Shown in pieces: positions 7,301 to 55,405 of a DNA stretch of 64,000 nt. The first letter of the stretch is position 1; each line of letters starts with the position of its first letter. Origin of the DNA: Candidatus Nitrosotenuis cloacae (GTDB lineage Archaea > Thermoproteota > Nitrososphaeria > Nitrososphaerales > Nitrosopumilaceae). Location of the stretch: assembly GCF_000955905.1 (NCBI RefSeq), contig NZ_CP011097.1, forward strand, positions 62,001 through 126,000, given 5' to 3'. The position numbers were made by a program, and so were the translations under genes. A model generated the notes under the pieces. It ran no database searches. It had not been told where the DNA came from and saw only the letters and a list, made by a program, of their open reading frames with translations.

Positions 7301-9564
7301 AAACAAATCCAAACACAATCGTAAATACATTAGGCGTACTGAATTACTCAATGCCAACATCTTCAAACACAACCTCAGTCTTGCCAACATTTGTAACTGC
7401 GCCTTCAGCAAGCTTACCACAACACATAGTCACACCGCCAGTAGACAAAATCACTCCAGGACAGAAGGTGATCATTCCGGTAGAGACATCATTAATTCCA
7501 TCATACGGTGGCCTAAGAGAGCTAAGCATTGAATCGCTAGACGGCAAGACATCTGTAGGCACAGCAAAGAATGACTGGTTTGTAGTAGAGACAAACTCAG
7601 ATGTCCCATCGTCAATAGGAAAAACTGGAATCAACCAGACCAACATAAACTTGTTCGTAGAGGTAAAATACAAATACGAAGCGGATGGCGTCGGATTTAA
7701 TTGGGGCGATACAAACAACGTAAAATCACAAACAGCAACATTGAAACTACGTGTAGCAAAATCTACAAACGTAATATCTGATAGTAACGGCTGTCCAGTT
7801 ATGACTACATACTCGTTTAACACTGCTACAAACAGATGGGACGCAACAAACATTGTTTCTACTACAACTCCTTCATCATCAGATGCAAACAGCTGTGATA
7901 TAGAAGTAAAAGCACAACACTTTAGCAGATTCAGTCTTGCATCTACTCCAAAATCAAGTTCAACACCAAGTGCAGGTCCTGGTGCTTCTGCTGGTGATTC
8001 TGGTGGAAGAGGTGGTAGCGGATCAATTGCTGGAGTTGCAACCGGTACAGTAGGTGCACCAGGAACCGTTGCAAACCCAATCATCCTGTACCAAGCAACG
8101 TATGACACCTGTGATAAGAATATGGTCAGAATAATTGCTGGGGTCTATGGCTCAGAGGCTCCTCCACCACACGTAAAGATCAGAACACCAGACAGAGAGA
8201 TATATTCCGCAACACTTGCAAAAGACCAACCATATCTAGAACACAACAAGATACTCCAAGTAAGCAGGTACATATACGAGGCACCGCTCACCAAGGATCT
8301 CAAGTACTTTGTAATCACAGCAGAGCAGGTAAATGGCAGAATTGCAACATCCGCATCATATCTGGTAAATGTCTATGGCTGCTCTGAAACAATAATCATC
8401 AACCCGATGACCGACTTGGAGAAAATCCGAATAGACACCATAATCGAAGAGGGAAGACCGAACATATTTGATATTAAATTCCAAGTAGGAAACAACAAAC
8501 CAGTCTCTGCAACAGCAGTAAACCAATTCATCCAAGGCAACGAGCTAGTCAAGGTAACCGGAATAGTTGACTCACAAACAGATCTAAGACGTGCAGAGCT
8601 TCGAGTGGTAACTGGCGGCAACAACTATACTGATTACGCAGCAGTAAAGATGGATATTGCACCACTAACTGGTGTTCCAAACACATACTTTGTCTCTGCA
8701 GAACTACCAACATCATTCCTGCAAGCCCCTGCCATCATATACTGGATACATGTGGTAAACCAAGAAGAAAAGATCCAAGCCTCTGAGAAATACTATTTGG
8801 GAGTAAAGCCAACCTACCCACTAGATGCAAGACTGGAATTGGATACCCCAACTGCAAAGTCACAGGGATCTGTGCTCAGACCATCAGCATATGTGTACAA
8901 TGAAGGCAAGCCATTATTTGGCTCAGTATCATTGATTGTAAATGGCAAGACAGTTCATACATCAACAGAATATGTCTTCAAGGGCATAACCGCAATTGAT
9001 CTCATCTGGGATGTTCCAGAACTAGACTCACAAACAAGCTATGACATCAAGGCAAGACTAAACCTGTATGACAAGCAAATAGACACTACATCCACAATGG
9101 TCAACACATTCGAGTCCACAAAATCATATCCGATCTCTGATGTGATAAATGTCCAATCCATAACAGATGAACAGCAAAAAATAGTTGCTAGAGCAGGCTT
9201 ACTGTACTCTTCTGATGCAAACCCAACCACACACTATAGAGTTGTATCGCCAGATGGCAAGTGTGTGATTGGTAGCACTGATTCTTGCTTGGTTAATCAC
9301 TCCACACTGGGCAAGAGAGGAAATGCAGAAAGCATCGAGATAAACGGCCAAATCTTCAGAGTTAGATATTCCGGCCAAGACAGTCCGTTGGAGAGATTCA
9401 GCATCACATCAGTGGATCCAATTGTTGGTAACTGGCACGTATCACTAGAATCAGATACTGGTCTGATTCCAGATGCTCAAGCCTCAGAGAATACTCAGGT
9501 CAAGGTAAAGTACAGAACATTGTTTGCCAAGCCGATCACACTGAGTTCTGTACAAGACTCCTAA
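4180..9564 (+). CDS. Giant repeat-containing surface protein, C-terminal open part
   Basis: The open frame runs from just after the last TGA (4098) to TAA at 9562-9564; the first ATG is at 4180 and gives 1794 residues. Residues 1 to about 857 are 18-residue repeats of the SLTEN-LG-TDT type. A beta-rich part follows, then two spaced Cys around 1207-1235 and a Gly/Ser/Pro linker around 1260-1297. The rest, to 1794, looks like stacked Ig-like modules with a few paired Cys. There is no signal peptide, no good Shine-Dalgarno site before 4180 and no clear C-terminal membrane anchor. I therefore doubt that 4180 is the natural start and think this is the distal part of a longer exported protein. I recognise no catalytic motif; adhesion or a cell-envelope role is an inference. 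Confidence 0.7.
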   Translation: MTDTITKSISIHLTENFGLTAEVVAAQATRLQTLTENLGMTDTITATSARTQSLTENLGSLDTVATTSTQSLTENRGILDTIATTRTPSLTENRGILDTIATTRTPSLTENRGILDTIATTRTPSLTENRGILDTIATTRTPSLTENRGILDTIATTRTPSLTENRGILDTIATTRTPSLTENRGILDTIATTRTPSLTENRGILDTIATTRTPSLTENRGILDTIATTRTPSLTENRGILDTIATTRTPSLTENRGILDTIATTRTPSLTENRGILDTIATTRTPSLTENRGILDTIATTRTPSLTENRGILDTIATTRTPSLTENRGILDTIATTRTPSLTENRGILDTIATTRTPSLTENRGILDTIATTRTPSLTENRGILDTIATTRTPSLTENRGILDTIATTRTPSLTENRGILDTIATTRTPSLTENRGILDTIATTRTPSLTENRGILDTIATTRTPSLTENRGILDTIATTRTPSLTENRGILDTIATTRTPSLTENRGILDTIATTRTPSLTENRGILDTIATTRTPSLTENRGILDTIATTRTPSLTENRGILDTIATTRTPSLTENRGILDTIATTRTPSLTENRGILDTIATTRTPSLTENRGILDTIATTRTPSLTENRGILDTIATTRTPSLTENRGILDTIATTRTPSLTENRGILDTIATTRTPSLTENRGILDTIATTRTPSLTENRGILDTIATTRTPSLTENRGILDTIATTRTPSLTENRGILDTIATTRTQSLTDNLGITDTVTATAAKKKSLTENLGMTDTTTRSTTKVLLELLGLTDNTAKKSTRSLTESLGVTDIITKTTTLSFTERLGMRDQVVVTVTKSLTENLSITDSILFKGGLRAEARDISDALIGGASYTISPNPLGGSSLVVVDNGANDNDATVGRIAFTSFTFGTYSITMTTVPAGYNVLGNSTAQEVHSTNLNGTSMFRVATQSTNLSLIPPTVITEAPSLNATTYNTWTSSFAAAIVNQTSTNTMNAVNQLPHIISVGNATSQSQTDNAILKQASIRLSTSFTSQTNPNTIVNTLGVLNYSMPTSSNTTSVLPTFVTAPSASLPQHIVTPPVDKITPGQKVIIPVETSLIPSYGGLRELSIESLDGKTSVGTAKNDWFVVETNSDVPSSIGKTGINQTNINLFVEVKYKYEADGVGFNWGDTNNVKSQTATLKLRVAKSTNVISDSNGCPVMTTYSFNTATNRWDATNIVSTTTPSSSDANSCDIEVKAQHFSRFSLASTPKSSSTPSAGPGASAGDSGGRGGSGSIAGVATGTVGAPGTVANPIILYQATYDTCDKNMVRIIAGVYGSEAPPPHVKIRTPDREIYSATLAKDQPYLEHNKILQVSRYIYEAPLTKDLKYFVITAEQVNGRIATSASYLVNVYGCSETIIINPMTDLEKIRIDTIIEEGRPNIFDIKFQVGNNKPVSATAVNQFIQGNELVKVTGIVDSQTDLRRAELRVVTGGNNYTDYAAVKMDIAPLTGVPNTYFVSAELPTSFLQAPAIIYWIHVVNQEEKIQASEKYYLGVKPTYPLDARLELDTPTAKSQGSVLRPSAYVYNEGKPLFGSVSLIVNGKTVHTSTEYVFKGITAIDLIWDVPELDSQTSYDIKARLNLYDKQIDTTSTMVNTFESTKSYPISDVINVQSITDEQQKIVARAGLLYSSDANPTTHYRVVSPDGKCVIGSTDSCLVNHSTLGKRGNAESIEINGQIFRVRYSGQDSPLERFSITSVDPIVGNWHVSLESDTGLIPDAQASENTQVKVKYRTLFAKPITLSSVQDS
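4390..6441 (+). repeat. Second 54-bp tandem array, 38 copies, open reading frame
   Basis: Thirty-eight 54-base units run from 4390 to 6441 and encode SLTENRGILDTIATTRTP. All look identical except the last, which ends in CAA (Gln) instead of CCA (Pro). Compared with array 1, the unit has GAG for AAG, CGC for CTC, a different core (GILDTI for GMTDQV) and AGA for TGA. The unit is a multiple of three, so three frames stay open by periodicity: the real + frame, a second + frame and one minus frame. The two extra frames are by-products. The near-perfect identity points to recent expansion or active homogenisation. Confidence 0.97.
6442..6753 (+). repeat. Degenerate terminal repeat units
   Basis: About six diverged units follow array 2. 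They start with SLTDNLGITDT, SLTENLGMTDT, LLELLGLTDNT, SLTESLGVTDI, SFTERLGMRDQ and SLTENLSITDS. The shared core is S-L-T-E-x-L-G-[ILMV]-T-D. They seem to show the older ancestral motif before the two arrays were amplified, and they end where the non-repetitive C-terminal part begins. Confidence 0.85.
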
Positions 9565-47808: not shown

Positions 47809-49635
47809 ATGGCAAAAATAATTGGAATAGATCTTGGAACAAGTAACTCGGCTGCAGCCGTAGTAATGGGTGGAAAACCTACCCTAATTCCTGCAGCTGA
47901 AGGAACCTCAATTGGCGGAAAGGCGTTCCCATCAGTTGTTGCCTTTACCAAGGAAGGACAACTCCTAGTTGGCGAGCCAGCCCGAAGACAGGCAGTAACA
48001 AACCCAGACAGTACCATAATTGCAGCTAAAAGAAAGATGGGCTCTGACTATGTGTTCAAAGTACAAGGAAAGGACTACAAACCGCAGCAAATCTCGTCTT
48101 TTATCTTACAGAAAATCAAAAAGGATGCTGAGGCATTTCTTGGCGAAAAAGTAGAAAAGGCAGTAATCACGGTTCCTGCCTATTTTGATGATAACCAAAG
48201 ACAGGCAACAAAGGACGCCGGAACCATCGCTGGACTGGATGTTGTAAGAATCATCAACGAACCAACTGCAGCTTCATTGGCATTTGGTCTTGACAAGGCA
48301 GGCCAAGACATGAAGATTCTGGTATTTGATCTTGGAGGCGGAACACTGGACGTTACCATAATGGAAATGGGCGGTGGTGTCTTTGAGGTCCTAAGCACGT
48401 CAGGTGACACCCAGCTTGGCGGAACCGACATGGACAAGGTCCTAATTGATTATGTAGTAAATGAATTCCGCAAAACAACAGGAATTGATCTTACCGGTGA
48501 TAGTACAGCAATGACTAGAATCAGAGAGGCCTCTGAAAAAGCAAAGATAGAACTCTCAACTGTAATGGAGACTGACATCAACTTGCCATTCATCTCGTAT
48601 GATCCATCTGCTGGACCAAAGAATCTAGAGCTGAAACTCACTCGAGCTAAATTTGAGGAACTGATACGACCGATCGTAGAGCGATGCAGAACATCAATTG
48701 ATAATTCATTACGCGATGCAAAGCTATCTACATCCGATGTTTCCAAAATTGTCCTAGTTGGTGGCCCTACACGAATCCCAATGGTCAAAAAATTCGTAGG
48801 TGATGTAATTGGCAAGAATCCGGAATCTGGAGTAGATCCAATGGAGGCAGTCGCAATGGGCGCTGCAATCCAGGCTGGAATCATTGCAGGTGACGTAACC
48901 AGCGATATCGTACTATTAGATGTCACACCACTAACACTAGGCGTTGAAACTCTGGGTGGTCTTCGAGAGCCACTAATTGAGCGAAACACCACAATCCCAA
49001 CATCAAAGACCAAGGTCTTTACCACTGCAGCAGACAATCAGACTGCAGTTACAATACATGTAGTTCAAGGAGAGCGACCAATGGCAGCCGACAATGTATC
49101 GCTTGGCAGCTTTAATTTGGCAGGAATTCCGCCAGCACCACGAGGAATTCCGCAAATCGAGGTAAAGTTCGACATTGATGCAAACGGAATCATAAACGTG
49201 ACTGCAAAAGATCTGGGCACGGCAAAGGAGGCAAAAATCACAATCCAAGCTGGCACCAAATTATCCAAAGAGGAAATCGACAAGCTAAAGCAAGATGCAG
49301 AAAAATTCTCTGATGAGGACAAAAAGAAAAAGGAGGCAGTCGATATTCGAAATGAAGCAGAGAGTTTTGTTTACACCACTGAAAAACTCCTAACACAAGA
49401 TCTCAAGGACAAACTCACACAAGAACAAGGAATCAAAATCTCAGAATCCGTAAAGGAGCTAAAAGAAGTTCTAGGAAAGACACCAGAAGAAATCAAACCA
49501 AAGCTTGATGCGCTAAAGGCACTGGTAAATGAAATAACTACGGAACTCTACAAAAATGCCGCTCCACCACCAAACCCGGAACAACAAGCAGGCCCATCTG
49601 AGCAAAGCAATCAAAACACAGGTTCAACAAGCTAA
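47809..49635 (+). CDS. dnaK: Molecular chaperone DnaK (Hsp70)
   Basis: A 608-residue Hsp70. The nucleotide-binding domain has [58 protein letters not shown] and [17 protein letters not shown]. The substrate domain starts near residue 370 ([33 protein letters not shown]). The C-terminus is a Pro/Gln/Ser-rich tail without a clear EEVD. The protein is of bacterial type and sits in a grpE-dnaK-dnaJ set, a layout that archaea received from bacteria. Confidence 0.98.
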
Positions 49636-49663: not shown

Positions 49664-50752
49664 ATGTCAGCAAAACGAGATTACTATGAAGTACTGGGAG
49701 TAACAAAATCAGATTCTGCAGATGCCATCAAGTCCCAATACCGCAAGCTAGCATTAAAGTTTCATCCAGACAGAAACAAGTCTCCAGAGGCGGCAGAGCA
49801 TTTCAAAGAAATATCGGAAGCCTATGCGGTTTTGTCTGATTCTGAGAAGAAAAAGCTCTACGACCAGTATGGCCACGCAGGAGTAGAAGGCAGATATTCC
49901 ACTGAGGATATCTTTTCAGGCGCTCGGGGCAACTTTGATGAGGTGTTTTCTAATTTTGGCTCTGGAGGATTTGATTCTATTTTTGAGTCATTGTTTGGGC
50001 GGGGAGGTGGATTTGGAGGCTTTTCACGGCAGCGTGGACAAGACCTGCTACACGAAGTATCCGTATCACTAGATGATGTTTTCAGAGGAAAAAAGCTAGA
50101 CATTGATGTAAAAAAGAATATTGACTGCAATGATTGTCATGGTTCCGGTTGCGCCCCTGGAACAAAGCCTGAGACATGTCCCAGTTGTAGGGGCCAAGGA
50201 CAGGTTCGTGTCACGCGAAACATGGGATTTTCGACATTTGTTACTGTTCAGCCCTGCTCAAAGTGCAATGGAGAAGGAAGTTTCATCTCAAAGCCATGCT
50301 CTGCATGCAAGGGAAGCGGAAAAACAAGGGGAACAAAACATCTCTCATTTGATCTTCCGGCAGGAATCGACAGCGGTGACTATGTCATTAATGGTGAGGG
50401 AGAATCCATTCCTCATGGTCCAAGTGGTGATCTGATAATCAGAGTGCGAGTGATGCCACACCAGCATTTCAAAAGGGATGGTGCAGATATTTTTTATGAC
50501 GCAAAGATCTCAATTGTTGATGCCAGCCTTGGAAAGACAATCGAGGTTCCAACACTAGAAAAACCAGAAAAGATCAAAATTGAAGAAGGGACACAGCCAA
50601 ATACAATATCAAAGATCAAAGGAAAGGGGCTGCCTCACATGGGTGCCCGCGGGCGCGGCGATCAGTATGTTCGATTTGTAATAGACATTCCAACAAAGCT
50701 AAACAAGCAACAAAAAGAACTATTAGAAAAGCTAGGCCAGACCTTTGATTAG
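49664..50752 (+). CDS. dnaJ: Chaperone DnaJ (Hsp40)
   Basis: This 362-residue full DnaJ has a J domain with H34-P35-D36, a G/F-rich region (GSGGFDSIFESLFGRGGGFG), four CxxCxGxG-type zinc motifs (CNDCHGSG, CPSCRGQG, CSKCNGEG, CSACKGSG) and two C-terminal substrate barrels. It delivers clients to DnaK. It follows dnaK by 28 bases. The downstream 53-aa gene on the other strand ends at the very next base. Confidence 0.97.
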   Translation: MSAKRDYYEVLGVTKSDSADAIKSQYRKLALKFHPDRNKSPEAAEHFKEISEAYAVLSDSEKKKLYDQYGHAGVEGRYSTEDIFSGARGNFDEVFSNFGSGGFDSIFESLFGRGGGFGGFSRQRGQDLLHEVSVSLDDVFRGKKLDIDVKKNIDCNDCHGSGCAPGTKPETCPSCRGQGQVRVTRNMGFSTFVTVQPCSKCNGEGSFISKPCSACKGSGKTRGTKHLSFDLPAGIDSGDYVINGEGESIPHGPSGDLIIRVRVMPHQHFKRDGADIFYDAKISIVDASLGKTIEVPTLEKPEKIKIEEGTQPNTISKIKGKGLPHMGARGRGDQYVRFVIDIPTKLNKQQKELLEKLGQTFD

Positions 50753-50914
50753 TTATTTGGTTGTCTTTCGAACGGATATCTGGTGACCGTTCCTGTAATG
50801 AGTGGTGTGGGTTGATTTTATCAGCTCTGCAATCTTGGCATCCGAAAAATACCTAACATTGTATCGTCCAAGTGTTTTTTTGCAGTTATTGCAGTAGATT
50901 TCTTTGAATTCCAA
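50753..50914 (-). CDS. Small CxxC protein (53 aa)
   Basis: A minus-strand frame of 53 codons starts with TTG at 50914: EFKEIYCNNCKKTLGRYNV, then RYFSDAKIAELIKSTHTTHY, RNGHQISVRKTTK. It has one CxxC and a His near the end, so it may bind zinc, though only two Cys are present. It abuts the dnaJ stop exactly (50750-50752 and 50753-50755). Ordered codons and a basic C-terminus suggest a real gene. Function unknown. Confidence 0.5.
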   Translation of the reverse strand: MEFKEIYCNNCKKTLGRYNVRYFSDAKIAELIKSTHTTHYRNGHQISVRKTTK

Positions 50915-50982: not shown

Positions 50983-51070
50983 GCGGGAGTCGCCAAGCCC
51001 GGTCAACGGCGTAAGGTTCAGATCCTTATCTTCTAGGAGTTCGTGGGTTCAAATCCCACCCCCCGCACCA
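50983..51070 (+). tRNA. tRNA-Leu(CAG) with encoded CCA
   Basis: A class II tRNA of 85 nt plus CCA. The acceptor GCGGGAG/CCCCCGC has one A-C mismatch, the D arm is GCC/GGC, and the anticodon stem TAAGG/CCTTA has loop TTCAGAT (anticodon CAG). The long variable arm is TCTTCTAGGAGTTC, and the T arm GTGGG/CCCAC. Discriminator A is followed by an encoded CCA (51068-51070); the other two tRNAs here lack it. A TATA-like CTTTTATTTT stretch lies about 25-30 bases upstream. Confidence 0.93.
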
Positions 51071-51190: not shown

Positions 51191-51607
51191 ATGAGTGAAA
51201 TTTTTGGCTATAGCATAGATTCACTCACCGCTTATGCTATAATGTTGCTTATTTCTGAATCTTTGACATTGTTATTTTTTTATCGTGATAATGCTGGTTG
51301 GAGATTTAGACCAACTAAATCCCTCATTAAAACATGGAAAGTTACAGTTTTCATTTTTGGGCTGTTCATTTTCACATTCTTTTTTGGAGATAATATGTCT
51401 GCATTAATACAAAATACTATGAAAGATTTCCAATATAGAGAATTATTAATGCCAGCATCTTTACTTCTGACTTTTGTATGGATTTGGCATTATGTAGTTG
51501 GAAAAGATATACACAAACCAATGATTCTAATGTTAATTGCAACCGGTGTGTTGATTGCAATTTTTGTTTGGATCAACATAGAATTAATTCAGGCGTTGAT
51601 TTCATAA
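51191..51607 (+). CDS. AT-rich small integral membrane protein
   Basis: A 138-residue protein with four hydrophobic spans (about 13-31, 48-68, 85-101 and 110-135) and few charged residues outside them. I recognise no family. Its codons are clearly more AT-rich than those of the flanking dnaJ and gatE genes. It stands alone between tRNA-Leu and a gene-free stretch, with no partner. ATG start; a TATA-like TTATAGTATA lies about 25 bases upstream. It could be lineage-specific. Confidence 0.6.
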   Translation: MSEIFGYSIDSLTAYAIMLLISESLTLLFFYRDNAGWRFRPTKSLIKTWKVTVFIFGLFIFTFFFGDNMSALIQNTMKDFQYRELLMPASLLLTFVWIWHYVVGKDIHKPMILMLIATGVLIAIFVWINIELIQALIS

Positions 51608-51936
51608 TTACTGATGATGTATCTATCCGAATATCTAAACAAGATTCCAATCACAACAATTCTAAATTGCTGAATTAGATCCTTACATATAGAAAAATTT
51701 GTTATTTGAATTGTTAATAAAATAAGATATCTCACAAAGCCTCGTGTTAAACCATTTCAGTTTAACACCATTCTAGCTGGGATTATTCTAGTATGATCAA
51801 AAAAACTGTCTAGTTCTGGCTAGTTATGAATAATGGAATGACTCCAATAATACAAAAAATGCCATTTTCCAATAATCATAAAATTAATTCAAAATTATGA
51901 ACAACTTTAAACCATAGTTAGTTCTAGTATGACCCA
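51608..51936. other. Gene-poor AT-rich stretch
   Basis: I see no gene in these 329 bases. A perfect inverted repeat is present (see next entry). Near 51,900-51,936 an AT-rich TATA-like segment probably serves the downstream GRGT-motif gene. Confidence 0.6.
51744..51768. repeat. Perfect 9-bp inverted repeat with 7-base loop
   Basis: GTGTTAAAC (51744-51752) and GTTTAACAC (51760-51768) are exact reverse complements around CATTTCA. No T-tract follows the hairpin. It could be a protein-binding site, an RNA hairpin or a remnant of a mobile element. It lies between the membrane gene and the GRGT-motif gene, with no copy elsewhere that I noticed. Confidence 0.75.
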
Positions 51937-52191
51937 ATGGGCAAAATCATCAAAGTTGGCGGTAGAGGCACCTCACGTAGAGTAGCAGATTCTGAAGACG
52001 AAAAGTGGGCTGGCGAAAAATTCAAGGACTACCAGAAAAAAATGAAAGAAAAGGCAGCCGATGAATATGTCGTGTCTGGCCGCGGAACAGGCAAAAGAAA
52101 GCTCGGTGATACTCCTGAAACTGAAAAGCCTTCATCAAAGGGCCGATACGTTTCAATGGGTAGAGGAACAGGAAGAAGAAAGTTAGAATAA
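51937..52191 (+). CDS. Small basic protein with three GRGT motifs
   Basis: An 84-residue, charged protein. The motif G-R-G-T-[SG]-[RK]-[RK] occurs three times: GGRGTSRRV near residue 8, SGRGTGKRKL near 48 and MGRGTGRRKLE at the end. Between the first two lies a Lys/Glu helical stretch. The spaced GRG-basic motifs are reminiscent of AT-hook or RGG-like nucleic-acid contacts, but I cannot name the family. ATG 51937. It converges on gatE with 17 bases between the ends. Confidence 0.65.
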   Translation: MGKIIKVGGRGTSRRVADSEDEKWAGEKFKDYQKKMKEKAADEYVVSGRGTGKRKLGDTPETEKPSSKGRYVSMGRGTGRRKLE

Positions 52192-52208: not shown

Positions 52209-54095
52209 TTATTTTTCTAATATTTTTGCAATTTTTGATTCCAAGGCCTTGCTTATTTTCTCACCAGATATCTTGCCACGCAATGACTTCATTGCCATTC
52301 CCATGAGTATGCTGGAAGAGCGAGCACCCTGTTTTTGTATCACATCCAGATTGCCCTGAATCAGCTCATCCAGGAATTTTTCCAGCTCCATATCACCAAA
52401 GGAGGACTGGCTTTGCGCAAACTCGCCAGGCGTCTTTATTTTCTGCGACATCATGCCCTCAAAGATTATCTCCACTGATTCCTTGCTAATTTTTTCGCTG
52501 GACAGCAGATCAAATGTCTCCTCGATGTGCTCTGGCTTTAGCAGACTGGCATCGAGGCCCTGCCTTTGCAAATTTGTAATTGTGGAACATAATGCAGATG
52601 CGACAAAGTTTGGGTTTTGGTATTTTGTGCATATTGATTCGAATAGTTCCATATAATCGGAATCAAAGATCTGCTCTGCCAGCTGCAAGTTGAGCCCATA
52701 TTTTTTTTGCAGTTCTGTTATGGTATCATCCCATGACTTGGGGATGTTTTTTTGTGCAAACTCAAATTCCTCTTTACTAACCAGTATTGGCGGAATGTCG
52801 GTTTCCGGATACATGCGGGATGAGCCAGGCCTTGGCCTCAAAAATACAGTCTCGCCTGTCTGTGTTGCAACTCGTGTCTCTGCAGGAACTCCACTCTTTG
52901 CATTTTTGATTCTATTAATCACAGCATCTAAAGCAAATTCTAGTTTTTCTGCAGCTCCTGCAATTATAAAAAATCCATCATGTGGTTGCAGCTTTAATAG
53001 CTCTCGTATCCCCTCAACATCGTTTTGCTCGATTCCATAGTTTGGCAGTTCATCTGAGTGAAATATTCCACCGATTCCAAAGAATCGCACCTGTTGTCCA
53101 AGCTCCTTTCCTAATCTGATTCCCTCGTATGGCTCATATCCAAACATGCCTGCAAAGTTTTTGATCCCAAGTGCTCTGATTGCAGCTCTGTCCTTGATTG
53201 ATTTCTGAATTACCTTGGATTTGCAACTTGTAAAATATGATGTAAGATCAACACTCTGGTTCTTTGATAGTGTATCAAGATCCATCTTCTCGATTTTCTG
53301 GGCAATCAGCTGCAGGCCGTGCTGTCGCTTTGCCTCATATAGAATGACTTTTTCCAGCTGGTCTAGCTGCTGGACTCCCTTTACCTCTACGATTCCACCT
53401 CCGGTAACTGATACGTTTACGTCCTGCCTGATAGATCCTATTCCGCGAGTTACCCTGCGAGTTACACGTAAGAGTCTACCTAGTGTTAGCGCTATTTTTT
53501 TTACAAATGCAGGCGAGCCACTCACTGGTTCCAGAGCAATTTCCACTAGCGGAATGCCTAGCCTATCCAGCGCATATTCTCGGATGTTTTCAGTGTCTTT
53601 GAGCAGTTTGGCAGCGTCTTCTTCTAGGCAAATTGTCTGAACGCCTACCTTGGTATCATCCACCTCAATGTATCCACCTTGGGACACCAGCATGGTTCTC
53701 TGAAATCCAGATGTATTAGAGCCATCAATCACTATTTTTCTCATGACATAGCTTTCATCGAAAATGTCTGAGTTTAGTGCAGATGCTATGATTAGTGCAG
53801 TGTCCTTTGCGTTCTGGTCCAGCTTGTGAGGTGGCTCATCGTCATGCTCTACAAGACAGCTGCTCTTGGGATTTGCATAATACTGGATTTGCTTTGATTT
53901 TGATGACTCAAATAACGCTGCAGGATCATATTTACCAAGCTCGCTTTTTGCCAATCTTAGCTTCCTTGAAAACTTGACAGGATATTCCTCCAACTCTAGT
54001 GGCTGGCATCCACAAAACAATTTTTTATTAGTTGCAAGCTGCTGGTGTATTTCTAGGCCAACTTTTAGTCCTATTTTGTCCAGTTGCGGTTCCAC
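52209..54095 (-). CDS. gatE: Glu-tRNA(Gln) amidotransferase subunit E
   Basis: A 628-residue GatE: KVGLEIHQQLATNKKLFCGCQP at the start, EPPHKLDQNAKDTALIIASAL, SGFQRTMLVSQGGYIEVDD, RVTRGIGSIRQDVNVSVTGG. An AspRS-type insertion domain lies in the middle, and a GatB/YqeY-like domain is at the end (SSSILMGMAMKSLRGKISGEKIS). It activates Glu-tRNA(Gln) and amidates it with GatD. Start GTG at 54095. GatD precedes it by 29 bases. Confidence 0.96.
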   Translation of the reverse strand: MEPQLDKIGLKVGLEIHQQLATNKKLFCGCQPLELEEYPVKFSRKLRLAKSELGKYDPAALFESSKSKQIQYYANPKSSCLVEHDDEPPHKLDQNAKDTALIIASALNSDIFDESYVMRKIVIDGSNTSGFQRTMLVSQGGYIEVDDTKVGVQTICLEEDAAKLLKDTENIREYALDRLGIPLVEIALEPVSGSPAFVKKIALTLGRLLRVTRRVTRGIGSIRQDVNVSVTGGGIVEVKGVQQLDQLEKVILYEAKRQHGLQLIAQKIEKMDLDTLSKNQSVDLTSYFTSCKSKVIQKSIKDRAAIRALGIKNFAGMFGYEPYEGIRLGKELGQQVRFFGIGGIFHSDELPNYGIEQNDVEGIRELLKLQPHDGFFIIAGAAEKLEFALDAVINRIKNAKSGVPAETRVATQTGETVFLRPRPGSSRMYPETDIPPILVSKEEFEFAQKNIPKSWDDTITELQKKYGLNLQLAEQIFDSDYMELFESICTKYQNPNFVASALCSTITNLQRQGLDASLLKPEHIEETFDLLSSEKISKESVEIIFEGMMSQKIKTPGEFAQSQSSFGDMELEKFLDELIQGNLDVIQKQGARSSSILMGMAMKSLRGKISGEKISKALESKIAKILEK

Positions 54096-54124: not shown

Positions 54125-55405
54125 TTATTCTGTAAACTCTGATGCAATGTTTTTGAGCATCACTTCTTTGATGTTCGCATCATTACCAAGCACCCACATT
54201 GCCTTTACCAGCGCAATCTCTGGTATCATGTTTGATAGTGGTATGATTCCAAAATGCATCAGGTCTCGTCCGCTCTCATAGATTGCCATGTTTACCTGGC
54301 CATCCAAACATTGTGAGGTCATTCCCAAAAAGACGTTTTGCTCTTTTGCCTTTTTTATTATATCATACATTGATTTTCCAACATGTCCAAGGCCTGTCCC
54401 CTCAAAGATTATTGCCTTGTATCCAAGCTCTAGCAAATACTCGACTTGCTTTGGATCATATCCAGGATGATATTTCACCAAGGCTACCTTGGGGTCTATC
54501 TTTATTTTCGGAGTATAGTCTTTTTGGGTATAATATTTGCCAGAGAAATTCTGCACTACATTCTCCCCAGATATTATGAATGCAGGTTTTGCGCCAACTG
54601 TCTCAAATGCATTTCTTTTGCTGGTATGGTTTTTTCGCACGCGCGTTCCAAGGTGGCACGCAGTATCGTCATCATTTTCCGAATTGTGCATTGCAACAAA
54701 AACCCCGCTGGTTTTACATTTTATGATGAATTTTGTAGCTCCGATCAAGTTCAGCGCGGCATCAGATGAAGGCCTGTCTGATGATCTCTGTGATCCCACC
54801 AAAACAATCGGCTTTGGAAAGCCAGCCAGTGCAAATGACAAAAATGCCGCAGTATATTGCATGGTGTCTGTCCCATGCGCAACCAAGATTCCGGCATACT
54901 CAGACTTTGCAAGTGAATCTAGTTTCTGAGCTATTTTTATCCAGTGTTCTGGAGTGATATTCTCGGAATATTCAGAAAATAACACCTCGGCATCAATATT
55001 GGCAATCTCTGCAAGCTCGGGAACCGATGCGTTTAGCTCTTGCGCATTCAGTGCCGGTGTGACGCTTCCTGTCCTGTAATCAATTCTGCTTGCAATTGTT
55101 CCACCGGTAGATAATAACAAAATCTTTGGCAATGCCGGATCATACGATATTGGCTTGCCTGATTCTTGTGATGATTCCACACCAGAAAGATATTCAATTT
55201 TTTTTATCTTGTCCAAGCCAAACCCGACATTATAGCCGCTCTTGAATTTCACAACTAAATGAGTGTCGTCGCTGTGCTCGTATCTTGGCATTATTGTGGC
55301 CGTTTGCTCAGAATCAGTCGTTATCTTTATGGTATCGCCAACTTTGAGCTTGTTTTGCTTTAGAAACTCTAGGACTTTTCCATTATAGCCGCGATATTCA
55401 GACAT
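54125..55405 (-). CDS. gatD: Glu-tRNA(Gln) amidotransferase subunit D
   Basis: A 426-residue asparaginase-like subunit that frees ammonia from glutamine. The N-terminal 80 residues are a small Sm-like domain. The asparaginase part has ILLLSTGGTIASRIDY, ILVAHGTDTMQYTAAFLSFAL, IVLVGSQRSSDRPSSDAALNL and FLGMTSQCLDGQVN. The first Thr (TGGTIAS) and the HGTDT Thr-Asp pair are the catalytic residues. It lies in a cdc48-gatD-gatE run on the minus strand. ATG start. Confidence 0.96.
   Translation of the reverse strand: MSEYRGYNGKVLEFLKQNKLKVGDTIKITTDSEQTATIMPRYEHSDDTHLVVKFKSGYNVGFGLDKIKKIEYLSGVESSQESGKPISYDPALPKILLLSTGGTIASRIDYRTGSVTPALNAQELNASVPELAEIANIDAEVLFSEYSENITPEHWIKIAQKLDSLAKSEYAGILVAHGTDTMQYTAAFLSFALAGFPKPIVLVGSQRSSDRPSSDAALNLIGATKFIIKCKTSGVFVAMHNSENDDDTACHLGTRVRKNHTSKRNAFETVGAKPAFIISGENVVQNFSGKYYTQKDYTPKIKIDPKVALVKYHPGYDPKQVEYLLELGYKAIIFEGTGLGHVGKSMYDIIKKAKEQNVFLGMTSQCLDGQVNMAIYESGRDLMHFGIIPLSNMIPEIALVKAMWVLGNDANIKEVMLKNIASEFTE

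Follow-up and report, generated by a model that had tools for sequence, protein, structure and literature searches.

A family of small basic proteins with three GRGT motifs in ammonia-oxidising archaea: candidate nucleic-acid binders

The locus

In the window analysed here, a stretch of 64,000 nucleotides from Candidatus Nitrosotenuis cloacae (positions 62001-126000 of a genome consisting of a single contig of 1,620,156 bases), a gene for a protein of only 84 residues lies between dnaJ and gatE, and the tetrapeptide G-R-G-T occurs three times in this protein (Table 1). What could such a protein do? An earlier note on this DNA had read the repeats as likely nucleic-acid contacts, perhaps of a chromatin or RNA-binding factor, and had stated that no family could be assigned. 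The three motifs are real: in 200,000 shuffles of the protein's residues, three GRGT motifs never arose and two arose seven times. The protein contains 23 lysines and arginines and 13 aspartates and glutamates (pI 10.04). Searching the genome with the profile of alignment A1 (57 rows) shows that it holds three copies of the gene.

Table 1. Features of the locus; positions are those of the window, except for the two further gene copies, which are given in genome coordinates.
Feature	Position	Strand	Evidence or remarks
dnaK (HSP70), upstream neighbourhood, conserved	47809-49635	+	Synteny, Pfam
dnaJ, upstream neighbour, conserved	49664-50752	+	Synteny, Pfam
tRNA-Leu (cag), between dnaJ and the GRGT gene	50983-51070	+	
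19-base promoter element AACAACTTTAAACCATAGT	51900-51918	+	TATA box TTTAAA at 51906-51911, about 29 bases before the ATG
GRGT-family gene, 84 aa, ATG start, TAA stop, pI 10.0	51937-52191	+	ORF and family searches
First GRGT motif, residues 9-12	51961-51972	+	A1: R 56/57, G 57/57, T 57/57
W-x-G, residues 24-26, conserved, ahead of predicted helix	52006-52014	+	A1: G26 invariant, W24 at least 90%
Second GRGT motif, residues 48-51	52078-52089	+	A1: R 56/57, G 57/57, T 50/57
Third GRGT motif, residues 75-78, followed by near-invariant R81	52159-52170	+	A1: R 56/56, G 56/56, T 55/56, R81 55/56
gatE, downstream neighbour, convergent	52209-54095	-	Synteny, Pfam
gatD, beyond gatE	54125-55405	-	Synteny, Pfam
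GRGT copy 2 (genome coordinates)	1031089-1031334	+	
GRGT copy 3 (genome coordinates)	1409132-1409383	-	

Conservation and charge

Loss of the motifs in homologues had been named in the earlier note as the observation that would speak against its reading. The opposite was found: R-G-T is the most conserved feature of the family and hardly varies at any of the three sites, even among members with as little as 29% identity in A1, where the invariant or near-invariant columns are R10 G11 T12, W24, G26, R49 G50, R76 G77 T78 and R81. The window protein shows the layout that defines the family, with three R-G-T motifs, the first two about 39 to 40 residues apart, and a W-x-G after the first.

Merging identical proteins among the matches listed and those from a related-locus search gave 79 distinct proteins, 57 of which form A1; the counts over 79 proteins refer to 77 of the distinct cellular set plus two viral ones, the fragments L090 and L095 having been dropped beforehand and the protein starts trimmed in L057, L088 and L073. 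Three RGT motifs are present in 68 of these proteins, two in 10 and one in a single protein. Lengths range from 75 to 94 aa (median 85), and all 79 are strongly basic, with a pI of 9.78 to 11.84 and a net charge of +7 to +24. Among 201 neighbouring ORFs of at least 150 aa (called mechanically) the median pI is 6.7, and just 5.5% reach 9.7. Basic residues had also been noted after each motif, which holds fully for the third copy only: the third position after the threonine is arginine in 55/56 A1 members at copy 3, and arginine or lysine in 41/57 at copy 1 and 21/57 at copy 2, so the pattern is not strictly kept after the first two. One position further on, copy 2 has arginine or lysine in 50/57 members. 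The reading frame is under purifying selection, as the median pairwise dN/dS is 0.087 for 15 same-genus orthologues (91 of 105 pairs with usable dS).

Distribution and family status

A search with the single protein matched 48 of 101 relatives, all within the window's own taxonomic family, and none of the other-family genomes among those 101; named carriers include Nitrosopumilales MAGs, 'Candidatus Nitrosotenuis' and a Nitrosopumilus strain. The A1 profile matches 189 of 250 genomes of the taxonomic family (104/131 among the better assemblies) and 18 of its 22 genera, at one to five copies per matching genome. In an even draw of 300 genomes from the phylum 37 match, every one of them from the same taxonomic family. 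As far as searched, the protein family thus occurs only in this one family of ammonia-oxidising archaea and in some virus-like contigs.

The A1 profile found no match in the remaining 4 of 22 genera, and the protein is therefore no indispensable chromatin component in this archaeal family. A very divergent gene hidden in these genera was considered and rejected, since the dnaJ-gatE gaps of 14 loci from genera without GRGT genes (fetched by gatE and read in six frames) hold no ORF with two or more RGT-like motifs; the test does not properly apply to g16 (L167, L168) and the out-of-family loci L169 and L171, dnaJ not being found nearby.

Existing family models all fail to match, so the statement that no family could be assigned was right. 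Pfam and NCBIfam contain no domain for the window protein, and Pfam run on 57 members gave scattered matches with no credible shared domain and no DNA- or RNA-binding model. The strongest of these, a THOC3 beta-propeller match (E 4.1e-6), occurs in one of the 57 members and was set aside as chance, as were two further single-member matches below 0.02, one of them Cas8b_C. PHROG and PADLOC gave weak matches only, none of them shared and all likewise set aside as chance, and a profile search of the sequences of solved structures returned a tautomerase at E 0.59 as its best match, which is not credible. The phrase 'GRGT motif' is absent from the literature searched, and no description of the family was found in searches judged mostly from listings. 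On the basis of these literature searches and family libraries, the GRGT proteins are a real, conserved family that is both unannotated and undescribed.

Gene neighbourhood and paralogues

A tree of 79 rows separates several paralogue groups, with few columns and many forks unresolved. The gene in the window belongs to the group found beside gatE: at 35 of 77 loci, spread over about 12 genera, the GRGT gene is followed by gatE in facing orientation (counted by eye), and dnaJ is usually found upstream where the locus reaches that far. A second group faces an unannotated gene of 115 aa. A third lies by transaldolase genes (confirmed with Pfam) and transketolase-like genes; the neighbours of a fourth are a permease gene and one resembling malate dehydrogenase. 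Apart from transaldolase, these names were read from the sequences. Overall, the downstream neighbour is convergent at 64 of 77 loci. Predicted ORFs on the same strand lie within 100 bases of GRGT genes in 17 cases, at least some of which are likely spurious.

Three smaller ORFs at these loci are without a Pfam match. A 53-aa ORF with paired cysteines (50753-50914, minus strand) adjoins dnaJ and is found at 53-57% identity in five other genomes. A predicted membrane protein of 138 aa (51191-51607, plus strand) lies between tRNA-Leu and the GRGT gene, and no ORF from the sister loci clusters with it. The 115-aa gene (L046:2382-2729, minus strand) faces the second paralogue group in most loci.

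Some members also adjoin genes for P-II nitrogen regulators. A P-II gene lies within 200 bases of at least three of 75 GRGT genes (38 genomes) and within 1 kb of at least two more. This amounts to about two independent events, which is near chance, and the association is weak. The genera g6 and g8 are without a detected GRGT gene, and their dnaJ-gatE slot is taken by a P-II gene (confirmed with Pfam for L172 only). These slot genes (L172:1090-1455, plus strand; L157; L158) have the orientation that the GRGT gene has elsewhere and carry an RGT in the likely T-loop. Very divergent GRGT members are seen directly 3' of a P-II (GlnK-type) gene at L063:2026-2762, L052:1583-2312 and G161:C1:949613-950340, and an ammonium-transporter-like gene adjoins the pair in L063 and L052. 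The P-II domain model (PF00543) has no match in 57 members at E up to 1, and a common origin with P-II was rejected on this ground. GRGT proteins resemble the P-II system in this adjacency and in the use of the same slot; they differ from P-II proteins in length and repeat layout.

Promoter elements

A promoter-like region upstream of the gene had been pointed out before, and it proves to be an archaeal TATA-type element that is conserved across genera. In 34 orthologues of the dnaJ-gatE group the 19-base element AACAACTTTAAACCATAGT is identical at a median of 18 positions, whereas the upstream control reaches 12 at most (median 10); scoring was anchored on the best match and is biased high, which the control from the same row partly corrects. 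Conservation falls outside the element in these orthologues. The promoter counts omit six loci and L012 (too short). The spacing of about 29 bases between TATA box and ATG suggests a transcript with almost no leader. A sigma-70 promoter was rejected, two sites being found where 2.6 are expected by chance, and the terminator scan was likewise at chance level; sigma-70 promoter and terminator models are of the wrong kind for archaea.

The element is also specific to this gene. Its exact sequence occurs once in its own genome, where the next-best site has three mismatches. Sites with at most two mismatches are present in 22 of 101 family genomes (11 for a reversed control pattern), and by coordinates 19 of these 22 lie just upstream of a GRGT gene, the exceptions being G039, G055 and G110. 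The G039 site (C57:2159-2177) is a copy with one mismatch in a fragmented genome without a detected GRGT gene.

Other paralogues carry elements of their own at roughly the same distance from the ATG. AATCTTATTA characterises 14 loci of one group (7-10 of 10 positions; upstream control 6-7) and GCTTAGATAAATACAAGAT 10 loci of another (13-19 of 19; control 8-10). A fourth promoter element is common to three loci of the same genus.

Copies on virus-like contigs

Four IMG/VR contigs of 71 to 98 kb (L135-L138, forming two pairs) carry one GRGT copy each. The encoded proteins are 80-82 aa long with three RGT motifs and W-x-G (matches at 8001-8246 or 8001-8240), and their genes sit among a primase-like gene, a helicase and unannotated genes. 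Three further scans with other paralogues gave no additional viral copies, and neither the 50,697 phage records nor the 72,556 plasmid records contain a match. Also encoded next to the viral GRGT genes are, with names given by eye, a matrixin-like metalloprotease and a large protein in which GGxGSGRK motifs recur. The viral primase has distant phage matches only. The metalloprotease-like protein has matches in 30 of 101 relatives, with 30% identity at best, which suggests that the host of these contigs is this archaeal lineage.

Predicted structure and proposed function

AlphaFold2 was run twice, with 16 and 15 sequences, and both models are of low confidence (pLDDT 63.5 and 61.4; pTM 0.36 and 0.26). 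In both, a strand, a GRGT turn and a second strand follow each other three times, with one predicted helix at about residues 26-41. The predicted secondary structure thus agrees between the models, which do not establish the overall fold. Foldseek with the first of them gave no match below E 6. The W-x-G and the hydrophobic positions in the strands suggest a folded core.

The gene in the window may best be explained as coding for one member, that of the dnaJ-gatE slot, of a new family of small, basic proteins that bind nucleic acid. In each repeat an R-G-T turn would connect a short strand to a second one, and the turn would set one arginine and a flat Gly-Thr on the nucleic acid, most likely in the minor groove of DNA, in the manner of AT-hook-like R-G contacts. 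Flanking lysines and arginines would grip the backbone. Three such tips round a single helix might make a multivalent and weakly sequence-specific binder able to coat DNA, to bridge it or to affect transcription; RNA would be the second choice. The repeats, their conservation, the basicity of all members, purifying selection, the range of the family and the conserved promoters were observed directly, whereas we infer the hairpin shape (from the low-confidence models), the contact, the preference for DNA and the cellular role.

To nucleic-acid binding as a whole we give a probability of roughly one half. It is favoured because the universal basicity, the Arg-Gly turn repeated three times between strands, the small size and the apparently mostly single-gene units all fit. 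Motif conservation, dN/dS, both models, the convergent downstream genes and the viral copies count for it as well. Against it count that no binding-domain model, solved relative or fold match was found in the searches described, that model confidence is low, that the basic positions following the first two motifs vary, and that no member was detected in 4 of 22 genera. The earlier reading is partly supported, in that basicity, tiny size and what look like mostly stand-alone genes fit; it gains no fold match, and the data do not separate chromatin from RNA binding. DNA in particular is a tentative choice of target, though somewhat likelier than RNA.

Small basic proteins are frequent binders of rRNA, and the RGT hairpins might instead bind RNA, the protein being a ribosome- or RNA-associated stress factor, such as an RNA chaperone or a ribosome hibernation factor, made together with DnaK and DnaJ. 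The conserved placement by dnaK-dnaJ in one subgroup fits this, as does the presence of several paralogues with different promoter elements, which would be expected of condition-specific factors. However, that setting is confined to one paralogue group, the others lying by transaldolase, CBS or permease genes; the GRGT gene is served by a promoter of its own, with a tRNA and the 138-aa ORF lying between it and dnaJ, and Pfam found no RNA-binding domain in 57 members. We consider this explanation unlikely.

No better placed is the idea that the GRGT repeats serve as docking sites for another protein, such as a chaperone, a modifying enzyme or a signalling protein; the GRGT protein would then be a scaffold or substrate with three sites, and its charge incidental. 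Short motifs repeated identically, with linkers that vary, are a usual sign of multivalent peptide docking, the low model confidence permits a partly disordered protein, and some members lie beside P-II signalling genes (at least 5/75 within 1 kb). Yet every member is strongly basic, the W-x-G and hydrophobic strand positions point to a folded core, and the P-II adjacency is near chance. The viral copies raise a quite improbable alternative, in which hosts and viruses trade copies in a conflict and the protein silences or protects foreign DNA. One copy sits on each of four virus-like contigs and extra paralogues evolve fast in several genomes, but defence models have no match, the main copies are stable, syntenic and under purifying selection, and no copy was found in the phage and plasmid records. 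Also improbable would be a new archaeal class of DNA-organising or silencing proteins with three R-G-T 'hooks', whose paralogues, on dedicated promoters, bind their own AT-rich, TATA-spanning elements and whose viral copies overwrite or join host chromatin control.

Comparison with known systems

Ammonia-oxidising archaea rank among the most abundant microbes of the sea. The organisation of their DNA is poorly understood, and the GRGT family is a concrete candidate for a part in it, given its presence in most of the lineage, the lack of annotation, the gene-specific conserved promoter and the virus-like copies. At the minimum, annotation libraries have missed a well-defined family that still lacks a name.

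Cren7 and Sul7 are archaeal nucleoid-associated proteins. Like these and Alba, histones and MC1, the GRGT proteins are small, basic and apparently mostly encoded in single-gene units, but no sequence or domain relation to any of them was found in Pfam, NCBIfam or solved structures. According to PMC7613761, histones make up less than 0.06% of protein in Nitrosopumilus maritimus, and a lysine-rich protein of 74 aa is a candidate nucleoid protein in another archaeon. That study looks for proteins below 290 aa, single-gene transcription units, a known or predicted DNA-binding domain and outlying abundance within the proteome. GRGT proteins have 75-94 aa, and their genes have their own conserved promoter and a convergent neighbour in 64/77 cases, but also 17 close same-strand ORFs; a DNA-binding domain was found neither in the window protein (Pfam, NCBIfam) nor in 57 members (Pfam). 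A GRGT member may already be among the candidate lists of that study, which includes N. maritimus.

AT-hook and AT-hook-like (Q/RGR) proteins, the latter including H-NS and Lsr2, use an R-G contact, following the description of RGR and AT-hook elements in PMC4466236. The AT-hook core R-G-R-P differs from G-R-G-T, and the AT-hook model matches 0 of 57 members. Nor is the GRGT core a Q/RGR, and it sits in predicted beta-hairpins. The likeness would lie in a short R-G element amid basic residues, on a putative loop or turn that enters the minor groove. Without being a member of that group, the GRGT family appears to find its nearest working analogy in the AT-hook-like R-G contact of H-NS and Lsr2.
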